Notes under the pieces: generated by a model | Databases searched by the model: none | What the model was told of the DNA's origin: nothing | Seen by the model: the letters and a program-made list of their open reading frames with translations, nothing else | Shown here: positions 11,001 through 33,607 of the stretch, piece by piece | Layout: the number at the start of each line of letters is the position of its first letter | Position numbering within the stretch: the stretch's first letter is position 1 | Made by a program: the position numbers and the translations under genes | Origin: an uncultured Pseudomonadota bacterium | GTDB lineage: Bacteria; Pseudomonadota; Alphaproteobacteria; UBA9219 | Direction of reading: 5' to 3' | Length of the DNA stretch: 38,708 bases | Assembly: GCA_903875345.1 (NCBI GenBank) | Contig: CAIQVS010000202.1 | Coordinates: 1 to 38,708 of the forward strand

Positions 11001-11381
11001 TTATTTCTTCGTTGCAATCTTCTTACCCGCGATCGGCTTCGCCTTGCCCTTGCGCGTGCGCGCATTGGTGTGCGTGCGCTGACCACGCACCGGAAGCCCC
11101 TTACGATGACGCAGACCACGGTAGCAACCGAGATCCATCAAACGCTTGATGTTCATCGCCACTTCGCGGCGCAAGTCGCCCTCGACCTTATAGTTCTTGT
11201 CGATGTCTTCGCGGATCTTGAGGATTTCGCCTTCGGTCAACTGATTGACCCGCTTGGTCGGCTCGACGCCGACGCGCGCGCAAATCTCCAGCGCATTGGT
11301 CGGGCCAACGCCATAGATATAACGCAACGCGATGTGTACCGGCTTTGCGGTGGGGATATTCACGCCTGCAATACGTGCCAC
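11001..11381 (-). CDS. rpsM: 30S ribosomal protein S13
   Basis: A 126-residue S13 (uS13) of the 30S head, which contacts 50S through the B1 bridges and the P-site tRNA by its C-terminal tail. Conserved stretches are [43 protein letters not shown] and the basic tail [16 protein letters not shown]. The start codon is GTG 11381 with GAGGAGA upstream. It is the first gene of the alpha operon, behind a strong promoter and a leader of about 185 bases. Confidence 0.97.
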
Positions 11382-11566
11382 TATGTCTCTCCTCAGTTCA
11401 GCTGCGCGTCGGCGATGACCACCGCGCGGTCCACGCTACGCGCAGACGCAATAACAACCCCGGCACCAAAAAACAACACGAATCCCGTAGCGTCATACAA
11501 AGACGCTCAGGCAACGTCTGTTACAAGGCGTAAAAATGGGCTCAGCCCCGCCCTTCGGGAACCGAG
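11382..11566 (-). promoter_or_regulatory. Long structured leader of the rpsM-rpsK-rpoA-rplQ operon
   Basis: About 185 bases lie between the predicted transcription start (about 11566) and the rpsM GTG. On the minus strand the leader can form small hairpins, for example GGGCT/AGCCC and AGACG/CGTCT (about 11503-11521). No open frame of note is present. Ribosomal operon leaders often bind a ribosomal protein for feedback control; here S4 is not encoded in the operon, so the regulator, if any, is unknown. The 185 further bases up to the kinase gene show only the promoter. Confidence 0.4.
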
Positions 11567-11572
11567 GTGCGC

Positions 11573-11600
11573 AGTATAGTCATCGACCGAAGAGAGTCAA
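11573..11600 (-). promoter_or_regulatory. Strong sigma-70 promoter of the alpha operon
   Basis: On the minus strand TTGACT (11600-11595), a 16-base spacer and TATACT (11578-11573), each 5 of 6 to consensus. It lies downstream of the signalling module and upstream of rpsM, so the alpha operon need not depend on read-through from the spc operon. Confidence 0.7.
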
Positions 11601-11751: not shown

Positions 11752-13536
11752 TCAAAACAGGGACTGATCCGGCAATGAGTTTAACGATAATTCCTCATCG
11801 GTCAATTCAAGGCTGTAAGGGATTTTTATGTCAAATTTTGTTCCGTGATAAAGCTCGGAATACACGCGAATCGAACCGCCGATCAAACGAACTTCGCGCT
11901 CGACCGCTTCCAGCCCGACGCCTCGTCCCGAAATTTCCGTGACGCTGTCGCGCGTCGACAAGCCCCATGTAAAAATGCGTTGAATGACTTCCTGATCATC
12001 TTCGACGCGCCACGACCCCAACGGATCGAGGTTGGCCAATCTGGCGCGAACGGTCATCGGATCGATACCAGCGCCATCATCGCTGATGATAATATGCAAC
12101 CACTGTTCCTGATTTTCGTCGGCGACCGTTAATTCCGCGTGAACCGAAACCTGTCCCTGCGGATCCTTGCCGCGCGAAAGACGAGTCACAGACGGCTCGA
12201 TACCATGATCGATAATGTTGCGGCTGATATGGCTCAGGGAAACCAGAAAATCCTGAACCATTCGCGCCAGAATTCTGGGGTTCGACCCCGTATAGCGTAC
12301 CGGCTTCATGCGTTTGCCCATGATCTCGGCCAATTCCATCAGCTCGCGCTCGAAAGGTTTGAAACATTCATGGATCGGAACGGCCACGATATCGATGAGA
12401 TATTCCCGAACCAGATCCGGATCGGCGTTGCGCTCTTTCATCGTGTTGACAAAACCATACAGGATGGCTTCCTCAACTTCGTGTAAATGGCCGCGCCCTT
12501 CGTAATCATGCCCAACGATGTCGCGCACTTGCTTCATGACATCCTCAAGCTGGCTTTGCAGAACGGCCTGTCCCGCCTTCAGGGTTTTCTGGAAATCCGC
12601 TTCCGAAGTGATCGACAGGCTCCGCAAATCGCCTTCGAGGCGTTCGACGGTTCGTCCCATCTCGTCAAGGTGGAAATGCTTGACCGCCGCCTTAAGCGTA
12701 TGCAGCGCGCGTAGAATATTGGGAACATCCGCAGACTGCACCGGCAATCCGGCTTGTTCGAGAAACCTCCGGATCTGCGTCACGGTCGTGAGGAATTGAT
12801 TACGTTCCTTGAAAATGCGGCAAATCATATCGGCGAAGTTTTGCTGGCGCTGCGCGTTCTGCTGCGCTTCATGCTCATCGGTGCGATCTGTGGCAATGAC
12901 GACAATGCTCGTCAGTTGGCCGGATTCCGCACGAATGGGACGATACATCAGGCTCACTTGCCGTCCATGATTGTGGATATACGACTGCGGCAAAAATTTG
13001 ACGACGTCATCAAACCCTAACGCATGATTGGGCATAAAAAGAACATCCAGCCAATCCTTGAAATCCACACGTTGATTTTCAGGAATTTTCAGGACATCGA
13101 CGATGTTCTTGTCCGAAGGTTCCGTTTCCAGCAAATCAAGGCAGGCTTGGGAATAAACGCGGCCGCAGACTCCCTTGACATCAAACGAAAGAAAGCCCTG
13201 ACCGAGACTGTTGACCAGAACCTCGGTCAACCGCGCCTGATTGCTGACATGCTGATGCACGCGGTAATTCAGATAGTATAGATAGCCGATGCCGGCCAAA
13301 GCCGTGCCGACCATCACGCCAAAAGCCCAGAGATACCGCACCGGCTCTCGGCCAAAAACCGGCAACGCCACGGCATACAACAGCACCATGACAATCGCCG
13401 TCATGCCGACAAGGGTTATGTGAATGATGTCCGCGTGGCGATTGGCTTCCGTGAGGGCGGCGCGTCCAGCGGAGGCGCGCGATAGCAAATCCGTTTCAGC
13501 CGGAATAGGTGGAGGATTTTTTTTGAAAAGGAACAT
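11752..13536 (-). CDS. Membrane histidine kinase with HPt and CheA-like ATPase domains
   Basis: A 594-residue protein. Two membrane helices (about 38-60 and 68-90) are followed by a PAS-like sensor region (about 103-220), an HPt-like helix bundle with candidate phospho-acceptor His279 in ILRALHTLKAAVKHF, and a CheA-type ATPase domain. In the ATPase, N440 in SRNIIDHGIE is the N box, ISDDGAGID is G1 and SGRGVGLEAV is G2, with GGSIRVYS following. Unlike CheA it has no CheW-like P5 domain and no clear separate dimerisation domain, and the HPt and ATPase are covalently joined to membrane helices. It is the third gene after a CheY-like and a CheX-like gene and likely phosphorylates that CheY. The signal sensed is unknown. 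Confidence 0.8.
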   Translation of the reverse strand: MFLFKKNPPPIPAETDLLSRASAGRAALTEANRHADIIHITLVGMTAIVMVLLYAVALPVFGREPVRYLWAFGVMVGTALAGIGYLYYLNYRVHQHVSNQARLTEVLVNSLGQGFLSFDVKGVCGRVYSQACLDLLETEPSDKNIVDVLKIPENQRVDFKDWLDVLFMPNHALGFDDVVKFLPQSYIHNHGRQVSLMYRPIRAESGQLTSIVVIATDRTDEHEAQQNAQRQQNFADMICRIFKERNQFLTTVTQIRRFLEQAGLPVQSADVPNILRALHTLKAAVKHFHLDEMGRTVERLEGDLRSLSITSEADFQKTLKAGQAVLQSQLEDVMKQVRDIVGHDYEGRGHLHEVEEAILYGFVNTMKERNADPDLVREYLIDIVAVPIHECFKPFERELMELAEIMGKRMKPVRYTGSNPRILARMVQDFLVSLSHISRNIIDHGIEPSVTRLSRGKDPQGQVSVHAELTVADENQEQWLHIIISDDGAGIDPMTVRARLANLDPLGSWRVEDDQEVIQRIFTWGLSTRDSVTEISGRGVGLEAVEREVRLIGGSIRVYSELYHGTKFDIKIPYSLELTDEELSLNSLPDQSLF

Positions 13537-13604
13537 GGGCGTTTGCGAACATCATTTCAATCGACAGCATTCAAGAACGCATCCCGGCAAATGACGGCGT
13601 CACG

Positions 13605-14135
13605 CTAGGAGGCTTTTCCGTTATCATGCAAGGCCACATGGACCTGGAACACCTGCCCGTCAAGATTGAACGGCACAATCATGTACTTGCCACGGTGGAA
13701 GTGGCTGACAAAGTGGCCTTTGCCGGTCACGACGCATGGAATACCAAGCTTCAGCTGAAAGCCCCGCTCGCTCATGTCGCGCTTGATCTGGCCGAAAATC
13801 ATATTCGTGATTTCACCGACCGCATCCACCGCCATTTCATGGGTAATCGCTATGGAACGCCCCATAACCTGCGGCAGGATGTTACGAACGGTTTCGAAGG
13901 TTAGGCACAAGGTCAGCGCGCCTTCCAGCTGCGATTGCACCATGCCGATGACGCCTGAGACGTCGCCGACCAGCGAAACCATGCCTTCGCCAACTTCGAA
14001 AGCTCCCGGCGTAACGTCAACGCTGAACGTTTCACGCATAACGCCGCCGACGGCATTCACGATTTCCTGCGCGAGCTTGTCATCAAGCGTCAATACACCC
14101 TGTGTCATTTTGTAAAGTTCCGTCCCATTGCTCAT
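13605..14135 (-). CDS. CheX-like chemotaxis phosphatase domain protein
   Basis: A 176-residue protein of the CheC/CheX/FliY phosphatase group. The catalytic E-x2-N motif is E108-I-T-N111 in DAVGEITNMIFGQIKRDM, preceded by the typical GMVSLVGDVSG-like strand. CheX dephosphorylates CheY-P by inserting Glu and Asn beside the phospho-aspartate. The start ATG 14135 overlaps the stop of the CheY-like gene as ATGA, so the two are coupled; an upstream frame extension is ignored. A single motif is present as in CheX (CheC has two). The kinase follows 68 bases later. No MCP, CheW or CheB is in the window. Confidence 0.82.
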   Translation of the reverse strand: MSNGTELYKMTQGVLTLDDKLAQEIVNAVGGVMRETFSVDVTPGAFEVGEGMVSLVGDVSGVIGMVQSQLEGALTLCLTFETVRNILPQVMGRSIAITHEMAVDAVGEITNMIFGQIKRDMSERGFQLKLGIPCVVTGKGHFVSHFHRGKYMIVPFNLDGQVFQVHVALHDNGKAS

Positions 14136-14578
14136 GGCGTGTTCCCGACGGTCTGCGACGATTGCCGCTTGCGTTTGATCCATTCGTGAATCTCGATCAG
14201 CTTCTTGCTGAGATCACCCGGCGAGACCGGCTTGATGATATAGGATGTCGCGCCGGCCTTGATGGCTTTCATGATATTCTGCTGTTCCGACTCTGCGGTC
14301 AGCATCACAAACGCCGTCGTTGCGTATTCGGGTTTGGCGCGAAAATAGCTCAACACCTCAAGCCCTGAAATCGTCGGCATGTTCCAGTCGAGAAAAACCA
14401 CATCATAGGGTTGGCTGGCGTCATAGGCTTTTTGCACAAGATCAATCGCCTCGTTCCCATCCGCCGCAGTCTGGACGTTGGTAACCTTGGCTTCCTGCAG
14501 CGTGTTGCGAACGAATTGCCGAATGAGAAAATGGTCATCGGCGACGAGAACTTTGAGACTTGCCAATTGACTGCTCAC
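14132..14578 (-). CDS. CheY-like single-domain response regulator
   Basis: A 148-residue receiver domain without output domain. The acid pocket is Asp14/Asp15 (VADDH), the phospho-acceptor Asp64 (VFLDWNMP), the switch Thr94 (VMLTAES) and Lys117 (IIKPVSP). A basic tail of about 20 residues follows. I start it at GTG 14578 because AAGGAGGA lies seven bases upstream; the longer frame has no such signal. It is the first gene of the cheY-cheX-kinase unit and is presumably phosphorylated by the kinase and dephosphorylated by the CheX-like protein. The 276 bases between it and adk contain no clear gene or terminator. Confidence 0.88.
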   Translation of the reverse strand: MSSQLASLKVLVADDHFLIRQFVRNTLQEAKVTNVQTAADGNEAIDLVQKAYDASQPYDVVFLDWNMPTISGLEVLSYFRAKPEYATTAFVMLTAESEQQNIMKAIKAGATSYIIKPVSPGDLSKKLIEIHEWIKRKRQSSQTVGNTP

Positions 14579-14854
14579 ACTACGTCCTCCTTCAGCATCA
14601 GCCTCGTAACGGCGGGGGTACGCAAGTCCCGCCCCAAGAATCCGACTAACCCGCCGAAACCCCGGTTGACAGGCAGAAACTATGACAGGCGATTCTGCGC
14701 ACAAAAACCTTGCTGTAAGGTTAAAACGCTAAAACAAGGCAGAGGAAGTTTAGGATTTCAATCTAGCGATCAGGTAAGCATTTTTAAAGTTTTTTTGCAA
14801 TCACCGGCTAGTCCCGCGCCGGGAACAATGACGTTGACGCAGGATTGCCGAGAC

Positions 14855-15499
14855 TCATTGCAGGATCGAAACAAGAGCAGCCTGTACATGGTCCATCGAT
14901 GCCATGCCATCAACCGTCTTTAGTAGACCTTTTTGGCGATAGAACGGCAAAATCGGAGCGGTCTGATCCGCAAAAGCCTTGAGGCGCGCCTTCATCGTTT
15001 CCGGATTGTCGTCGGGACGGAAAACAAATTCCTTTCCGCCGCATGCATCGCAAGCGCCCGCCTGTTTCAGAGGCTTGAACTTTTCATGATACCCGGCGCC
15101 GCATTTGGCGCAGGTAAACCGCCCGACGACTCGCTCAATCAACGCGGCATCGTCAACCTCAAGCTCAATGACGGCATCAAGCTTTTTGCCGCTCGCGGCA
15201 AGCATCGCATCCAACGCTTCGGCCTGCGGCACAGTGCGTGGGAATCCGTCGAGAATAAATCCCTTGGCGCAATCGGGTTCGGCAATACGCGCGGCAATCA
15301 TGCGGATCATGAGTTCGTCCGGCACCAGTTTGCCTGACTCCATGATCGCTTTGGCCTCTTGACCGATCGGCTCGCCACGCTTGACGGCGGCGCGCAGCAT
15401 ATCTCCGGTCGATAGCTGGATCATGCCGAAACGCTCCTCCAGCAATCGCGCTTGCGTTCCCTTGCCAGCTCCGGGAGGTCCGAGAAGAATGATGTTCAT
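14855..15499 (-). CDS. adk: Adenylate kinase with zinc-type LID
   Basis: A 214-residue long-form adenylate kinase (ATP + AMP = 2 ADP). The P-loop is [12 protein letters not shown] (5-16), the AMP site includes [10 protein letters not shown], and DGFPRT is conserved. The LID carries four cysteines (C130-x2-C133 and C150-x2-C153), a structural zinc site found in Gram-positive and some proteobacterial enzymes but absent from E. coli Adk. It follows secY after 10 bases, its usual place at the end of the spc operon. Confidence 0.97.
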
Positions 15500-31880: not shown

Positions 31881-32296
31881 CCGATCTCCGTTTATCCGTC
31901 GTTCCACACGTAAAAAACACAAAACCCCGTCCGAGCACGCCCATTCGCGCTCTGAAGAGGACTATTACCTAACACCTTGCAACCCGCTCGCCGCCAAACT
32001 TCCGGCGACAGCCGTTTCATTGCCAGAGGCTATGTAACTTTTGCGACATCCGGAACCGCGTCTGGATTGATGATCCACCACCGACTCCGAAAAGGCAGGC
32101 GGTTTCTATGATCTTTTTCCCAACGCGTCAAGCCAATTTAATGGTTTCTTGAGGAATTTCTTATCCGGTTTCACGGATTTTCTTATGATTGGAGAAATCT
32201 CGAAAAGACTTTCGCTTAATTTTTCAGGCCAACCTATTGAAAGCCATTCCCGAAACGGGCTACAAAGACAGATTGTCCAGCCAAAGCGAGCCGCTC
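31881..32296. other. Divergent intergenic region rpsL/fabZ
   Basis: About 415 bases between the divergent rpsL and fabZ. I see no credible gene. On the plus strand a candidate fabZ promoter lies at 32161-32189, overlapping a small inverted repeat (ATCCG/CGGAT, 32163-32178). On the minus strand the str operon promoter must lie here, but I find no convincing pair of boxes. An in-frame upstream extension of fabZ to TTG 32189 is judged not translated. Confidence 0.5.
32161..32189 (+). promoter_or_regulatory. Candidate fabZ-lpxA promoter
   Basis: TTATCC (32161-32166), 17 bases, TATGAT (32184-32189). The -10 is 5 of 6, the -35 is weak. It would give a leader of about 100 bases before fabZ. Confidence 0.35.
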
Positions 32297-32800
32297 ATGA
32301 CCAAGCCTAAAACTGATGTCGCCCCGACGAACACGATTGATGTCGCCGGGATTATGGCACGAATCCCCCACCGTTACCCAATGTTGCTGATCGACCGAGT
32401 CGTCGACGTCGTGCTTGGCGAGAGCTGCACCGGAATCAAGAACGTCAGCGCCAACGAGCCCGTATTTCAGGGGCATTTCCCCGGCCACCCGATCATGCCG
32501 GGCGTGTTCATCATCGAAGCGATGGCGCAAACTTCGGCGACTCTGGTCGTCGCTTCGCTGGAAGGCGTAAGCTGCGACACGCATGTCGTGTACTTTATGA
32601 CAATCGAAAGCGCGCGTTTCCGCAAGCCGGTCGTCCCCGGCGATCGCCTCCATATCAAAGTCAAAAAAGACCGTCAGCGCGGCAGCGTCTGGAAGTTTCG
32701 CGGCGAAGCCTACGTTGGCGATGTTCTGTGCGCCGAGGCGGTTTACACCGCGATGCTGGTTCCAAAAGGCGACACTCAGCCGGAATCCACGGCAGGATAA
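32297..32800 (+). CDS. fabZ: 3-hydroxyacyl-ACP dehydratase FabZ
   Basis: A 167-residue hot-dog-fold dehydratase that removes water from (3R)-hydroxyacyl-ACP in fatty acid elongation. The catalytic His60 is in GHFPGHPIMPGV and Glu74 in FIIEAMAQ; IPHRYPMLLIDRVVD is the typical N-terminal segment. I start at ATG 32297 (MTKPKTDVAP), since the upstream extension is not like the family. lpxA follows after six bases, the usual pairing, but lpxD, which normally lies upstream, is replaced by the rpsL end of the ribosomal cluster. Confidence 0.95.
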   Translation: MTKPKTDVAPTNTIDVAGIMARIPHRYPMLLIDRVVDVVLGESCTGIKNVSANEPVFQGHFPGHPIMPGVFIIEAMAQTSATLVVASLEGVSCDTHVVYFMTIESARFRKPVVPGDRLHIKVKKDRQRGSVWKFRGEAYVGDVLCAEAVYTAMLVPKGDTQPESTAG

Positions 32801-32806
32801 CCCGGT

Positions 32807-33607
32807 ATGGCAACGCACATTCACGCGACGGCGATCGTCGATCCGGCAGCGCAGATTGGCGCGAACGTCTCCGTAGGCCCCTATTGCGTTATCGGCGCGA
32901 ATGTCCGGTTGGACGATGGGGTTCAGTTGCTCTCGCACGTCGTTATCGACGGACGCACGAGCATCGGCGCGAACACCGTCGTCTATCCTTTCGCCTCGCT
33001 CGGCCACCGTCCGCAGGATTTGAAATACAAGGGCGAGCCCTCGACGCTTGAGATCGGCGCGAACAATCAGATTCGCGAGCATGTGACGATGAATCCCGGC
33101 ACCGAAGGCGGCGGCATGATCACGCGCGTCGGCGACAACTGCCTGTTCATGATGGCGGCGCACGTCGCGCATGATTGCCAGCTCGGCAACAACGTCATCC
33201 TCGCCAACAACGCCACGCTCGCGGGGCATGTCACGATCGGCGATTTCGTCATCATCGGCGGCCTGTCCGCCGTGCATCAATTCGTGCGCATCGGCTCCTA
33301 CGCGATCATCGGCGGCATGTCGGGCGTCGAAAGCGACGTCATTCCCTTCGGCCTCGTCAAAGGCGAACGCGCGCATCTGGCCGGTTTAAATATGGTCGGT
33401 CTGGAACGCCGGGGATTCAGCCGCGACGATGTCCGCGCCTTGCGCAGCGCCTACCGCATGTTGTTCGCGCCGGAAGGCACGCTCGCCGAACGGCTTGAGG
33501 AAACGGCAACGCACTATAAGAATCAGGAACAGGTTGGGCGCATCGTTGAATTCATCCGCGCCGACTCCAGCCGTCCGCTCTGCCAGCCGAAGAGCGACGA
33601 GGATTAG
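32807..33607 (+). CDS. lpxA: UDP-GlcNAc acyltransferase LpxA
   Basis: A 266-residue left-handed beta-helix enzyme that adds the 3-hydroxyacyl chain to UDP-GlcNAc, the first step of lipid A synthesis. Hexapeptide repeats run from about residue 5 to 185. The active-site histidines are in AAHVAHDCQLG (His119 and His122; the latter matches the catalytic His). LNMVGLERRGFS and ALRSAYRMLF mark the C-terminal helical domain. Its product is made in the cytoplasm from the FabZ pathway substrate. lpxI and lpxB, which often follow, are absent here. Confidence 0.96.
   Translation: MATHIHATAIVDPAAQIGANVSVGPYCVIGANVRLDDGVQLLSHVVIDGRTSIGANTVVYPFASLGHRPQDLKYKGEPSTLEIGANNQIREHVTMNPGTEGGGMITRVGDNCLFMMAAHVAHDCQLGNNVILANNATLAGHVTIGDFVIIGGLSAVHQFVRIGSYAIIGGMSGVESDVIPFGLVKGERAHLAGLNMVGLERRGFSRDDVRALRSAYRMLFAPEGTLAERLEETATHYKNQEQVGRIVEFIRADSSRPLCQPKSDED

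Follow-up and report, generated by a model that had tools for sequence, protein, structure and literature searches.

A cheY-cheX-kinase gene trio kept across an alphaproteobacterial order probably encodes a CheW-independent phospho-signalling circuit

The CheW domain links the chemotaxis kinase CheA to chemoreceptor arrays. In the available passages of a survey of CheA proteins (PMC10782961) it is a defining domain, present in 100% of CheA, and of the genomes whose single CheA carries a CheY-like domain 93% lack chemosensory phosphatases. CheX phosphatases are known from Thermotoga, Borrelia, Shewanella and Vibrio. We have analysed a window of 38,708 nucleotides, being the whole stretch of contig CAIQVS010000202.1 under study, from an uncultured bacterium of the order UBA9219. 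Here genes for a CheY-like protein, a CheX-like protein and a membrane kinase lie in that order of transcription between adk and rpsM, all on the minus strand. The kinase shares with CheA an Hpt phosphoacceptor and a CheA-type P4 ATPase, but it is without CheW/P5 and P2, has only short helices at the place of P3, and carries its own transmembrane (TM) and PAS-like sensor. The CheX-like protein has the fold and ExxN motif of the known CheX phosphatases, but its gene accompanies those of a CheW-free kinase and of a CheY other than the motor type. Comparison of the sequences leads us to conclude that the trio probably constitutes a dedicated kinase/regulator/phosphatase circuit that is independent of CheW.

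The first gene (14132-14578, minus strand) has a GTG start preceded by GGAGGACGTAGTGTG, and encodes a CheY-like single-domain response regulator of 148 aa (Pfam Response_reg, 2.6e-27). It shares an ATGA overlap with the second (13605-14135, minus strand), which encodes a predicted CheX-like phosphatase of 176 aa (Pfam CheX, 4.3e-18; PDB 3h2d, 2.3e-21). The membrane kinase (11752-13536, minus strand; 594 aa) matches HATPase_c (5.5e-14) and Hpt; the latter match, at 24.6 bits, falls exactly at the Pfam cut-off and is a point against the circuit. Upstream is adk (14855-15499, minus strand; Pfam ADK, 8.5e-56) at the end of an spc-type cluster, and downstream is rpsM (11001-11381, minus strand; Pfam Ribosomal_S13, 3.4e-33) at the start of the alpha operon. 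The intergenic gaps are wide, 276 nt between adk and cheY and 370 nt between the kinase gene and rpsM. The sequence-only reading of this DNA had described these three genes and their position, the ATGA overlap and a Shine-Dalgarno sequence before the first gene, and the Pfam matches and coordinates bear it out. Its statement that no other chemotaxis genes are nearby holds for the window ORFs scanned with Pfam, which are a part of the total. Elsewhere in the window a 380-aa ORF (32234-33376, minus strand), between a str-type cluster and a transglycosylase-like gene, has no Pfam match at E 1e-5.

The kinase comprises two TM helices, a PAS-like domain, an Hpt domain with H279 and a CheA-type P4 ATPase. 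In the AlphaFold model (mean pLDDT 78.9, pTM 0.53) the TM segments fall within helices 15-57 and 69-111, and are followed by the PAS-like segment at 113-217, Hpt at 245-341 and P4 from ~388. The PAS-like assignment comes from the model and the sequence pattern, with no PAS family match in Pfam. P4 contains N440, D486 and G537/539/541 and matches the P4 of CheA in the PDB (1i58, TMt 0.81), and the active-site residues, including H279, are invariant in an alignment of 20 sequences. The protein thus combines an Hpt with a phospho-acceptor histidine and a CheA-type ATPase, as in CheA. However, a CheW/P5 domain is absent in the Pfam scan, and the protein ends after P4 in the model; neither P2 nor a full P3 was found. 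H-kinase_dim has no Pfam match, and the model shows only short helices at 356-384, although passages of PMC10782961 note that HMMER often misses this domain. Since it has no CheW domain, the kinase is not a CheA.

The CheX-like protein has a catalytic-type ExxN motif (E108/N111), both residues being invariant in 20 orthologues. Its predicted model resembles solved CheX structures (3h2d, TMt 0.77), so that by motif and modelled CheC/CheX fold it is classed as a CheX. The CheY-like protein has an acidic pair D14/D15, the phospho-acceptor D64, T94 and K116, and all five are invariant in a 19-sequence alignment. It is a receiver with DD, D, T and K that lacks an output domain, i.e. a single-domain CheY-type response regulator. 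Outside the active-site loops its most conserved elements are alpha4 (10/14 positions invariant) and beta5 (5/7). An orphan CheY-like sister, 42-56% identical to the trio CheY, is encoded beside an rph-like gene in L197 (2811-3305, minus strand) and beside an rdgB-like gene in L198 (7522-7938, plus strand) and L199 (7085-7501, minus strand). It may use the trio kinase too.

These features suggest the following circuit. The kinase would sit in the inner membrane and sense through its TM/PAS part, and its P4 domain would autophosphorylate H279 of the built-in Hpt. The phosphoryl group would pass from H279 to D64 of the neighboring CheY-like protein, and CheX would remove it through the ExxN motif. 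It is plausible that the output is by protein contact of the single-domain regulator, as the sequence-only reading had supposed; phospho-CheY would bind another protein, most likely via the alpha4-beta5 face, and the target would probably be reached outside the canonical che pathway. The conservation of the alpha4 face could alternatively stem from CheX binding rather than from binding an output target. Other kinases, CheA included, might also feed the trio CheY.

The trio might instead be an accessory of flagellar chemotaxis, with its CheY binding the motor or competing for phosphate and its CheX acting as a system-wide CheY-P phosphatase. FliM is found in 30 of the 33 genomes of the order, but G030, which has the trio, gave no FliM hit, although its assembly is in ~290 contigs. 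Among solved structures the trio CheY matches chemotaxis CheYs best, and it retains DWNMP as well as the Tyr/Lys of the face that binds the motor. Against this, two other CheYs exist separately. One belongs to the canonical che operon, whose CheA has Hpt, H-kinase_dim, HATPase, two CheW and REC domains; the other is a fliM-linked motor-type CheY, ~80-88% identical across most genomes compared. The latter is only ~31% identical to the trio CheY, and the two are separate genes that are not orthologous. Each genome has a single CheX, module paralogues aside, which would suit a system-wide role. Yet a REC-bearing CheA is a setting in which, according to the same passages of PMC10782961, CheX, CheZ and CheC are usually absent, and CheX is therefore better explained by the trio. 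Finally, G002 has intact trio CheY and CheX, but no CheW hit and an altered acidic pocket in its motor-type CheY. Its kinase gene has a broken frame in the second TM region (genuinely or by assembly error), so that it provides no demonstration of a working circuit. Taken together we regard an accessory role in chemotaxis as improbable.

A second alternative concerns the input. C124 and C132 of the PAS-like domain are present in 19/20 orthologues and C239 in 18/20, and the GxC-x7-C motif reappears in paralogues and in several Bdellovibrionota kinases. Available passages on E. coli ArcB describe redox detection with two PAS cysteines (PMC11620690), and the loop between the TM helices of our kinase is short in the model. 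The kinase could be mainly an ArcB-type respiratory or redox sensor, and the CheY a phosphate shuttle to other Hpt domains or receivers instead of a contact effector. The resemblance to ArcB is no more than an analogy, and we consider this explanation as a whole unlikely, if a little less so than the chemotaxis role. Its input half is compatible with the CheW-independent circuit, to which the PAS cysteine pair would perhaps provide a redox input.

Orthologues of the kinase are present in 31/33 genomes of the order, three of them as fragments only; the two without one (G011 and G014) are 69% and 80% complete. The matches listed from other members of the class are to the ATPase domain only. The trio CheX profile matches 29/33 genomes, and 21/21 when only genomes with completeness of 90% or more and contamination of 5% or less are counted. 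Given completeness of 69-89%, its absence from G011, G014, G015 and G032 is not read as loss. Class-wide, it finds weak matches in two other alphaproteobacteria. Mean identity to the window proteins in families f1 and f3 is 85% for CheY (and likewise for rpsM), 67% for CheX and 54% for the kinase, and in f2 it is 56% (rpsM 80%), 51% and 40% respectively. One record of the order, L035, is labelled Micavibrio sp., a name that NCBI taxonomy places under Bdellovibrionota; the order may be Micavibrionales.

Wherever the three genes of a locus could all be read, they stand in the order cheY-cheX-kinase. An identical trio in identical order across the order indicates that the arrangement is not due to chance. 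Both adk and rpsM flank it in 10 genomes (G000, G001, G005, G006, G007, G017, G025, G026, G027 and G030) from all three families. The adk side is kept in G004 and G009, where rpsM was checked and is absent nearby, and the rpsM side in G021 and G029, where the same is true of adk; in several further genomes rpsM is present and adk lies beyond the stretch covered. The trio stands with neither gene in G002 (adjoining degP- and ftsZ-like genes), G003, G010 and G020, and on the short contigs of G008 (adjoining a pth-like gene), G019 and G023. Apart from those backed by a family search, gene names at the relatives' loci were assigned by reading the sequence. Because the adk-rpsM position occurs in all three families, adk-trio-rpsM is likely the ancestral order, and the departures from it later. 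To call the trio "inserted" at this seam, as had been done, is thus only partly apt: it lies between adk and rpsM here, likely by ancestry, and is later found elsewhere. The comparison of gene order proposed at the same time shows a trio that is not scattered, even where the seam is broken.

Related modules occur as paralogues. Those in L122 and L123 are cheY-cheX-kinase and that in L121 is cheX-FIST-kinase; the existence of such paralogues with other sensors, in some cases linked to FIST, supports a modular circuit. The proposal of a self-contained circuit is supported by these modules, from the invariant active sites and from linkage of the trio throughout the order, including away from adk-rpsM. 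A cheY-cheX-FIST-kinase module is also present in an alphaproteobacterium outside the order (L118:6788-10801, plus strand). In a kinase tree the trio kinases form one clade (100/99); the remaining groupings are more weakly supported and have long branches flagged. PAS-Hpt-CheA-type kinases of Bdellovibrionota (L039-L047, L049, L050 and L060) are similar in PAS, Hpt and P4 at ~26-31% identity, but fall outside the trio clade in the tree, where support is modest and branches are long. No CheX match was found in the ORFs of the fetched loci of these kinases, and we reject a predator-specific trio held in common with Bdellovibrionota, since the kinases match but CheX was not found alongside. CheX relatives fetched from other proteobacteria are solitary or adjoin a CheY, with no match to the trio kinase within ~1.5 kb. 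In its PAS segment the trio kinase also aligns at 44% with a 772-aa protein encoded beside a NosP-like (FIST) protein (L267:1615-5081, plus strand, FIST gene first), in the manner of NosP/NahK. The 772-aa protein is a HisKA hybrid kinase carrying REC domains, whereas the trio has a CheA-type ATPase and no FIST protein.

The position among translation genes had been taken to tie expression of the trio to growth rate. Transcription by read-through from adk, as a passenger of the spc operon, would accord with the likely ancestral position in all three families, and we found no terminator-like site after adk. However, within the 276-nt gap lies a conserved cis element, TTAACCTTACAGCAAGGTTTTTGTG (14700-14724, minus strand), with a single match in the window and 0 in 100 shuffles. 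At most loci of the order an element aligned with it lies ahead of cheY. The 25-bp pattern was tested in 10 genomes and occurs exactly once in each of the 10 (reversed control 0); as it was drawn from the upstream alignment of these loci a match there is expected, and it is the lack of other copies that is informative. It is retained in four of the six relocated trios that could be checked (G010, G019, G020 and G023) and unrecognisable in G002 and G003. The element is likely the promoter or operator of the trio. A sigma-54 reading of it did not fit by eye. Full CtrA boxes in three genomes numbered 5, 11 and 9, against 1, 8 and 4 respectively for the reversed control, too few for us to claim a link to CtrA. 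The alpha operon has its own predicted sigma-70-type promoter downstream of the kinase gene (TTGACT-N16-TATACT, 11573-11600, minus strand), and a similar site is found in most relatives that keep rpsM beside the kinase. Directly after it is a terminator-like hairpin (11541-11566, minus strand), a possible leader or attenuator, and rpsM has a weak Alpha_RBS-like leader match (11349-11453, minus strand; Rfam RF00140, 32.5 bits against a gathering threshold of 38, E 1.4e-4). With the trio's own upstream element, the separate alpha-operon promoter and the location of the block elsewhere in several genomes, coupling to growth rate is not supported, and we consider it very improbable.

In a non-exhaustive search, judged from titles, abstract openings and passages, we found no description of the trio module. 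In the passages available on M. aeruginosavorus (PMC3189940), chemotaxis and two-component genes are upregulated in the attack phase, ribosomal genes in the attachment phase. That the trio represents an undescribed two-component class, of a CheW-free CheA-type sensor kinase with CheY and CheX, the core copy acting as a lifestyle switch throughout the order, e.g. between attack and growth in predators, is a speculative and rather doubtful extension. The more likely dedicated circuit would be a compact one, assembled from chemotaxis parts without the CheW domain and retained in all the well-sequenced genomes examined from the order. With a cultured member of the group, what the trio controls could be tested directly.
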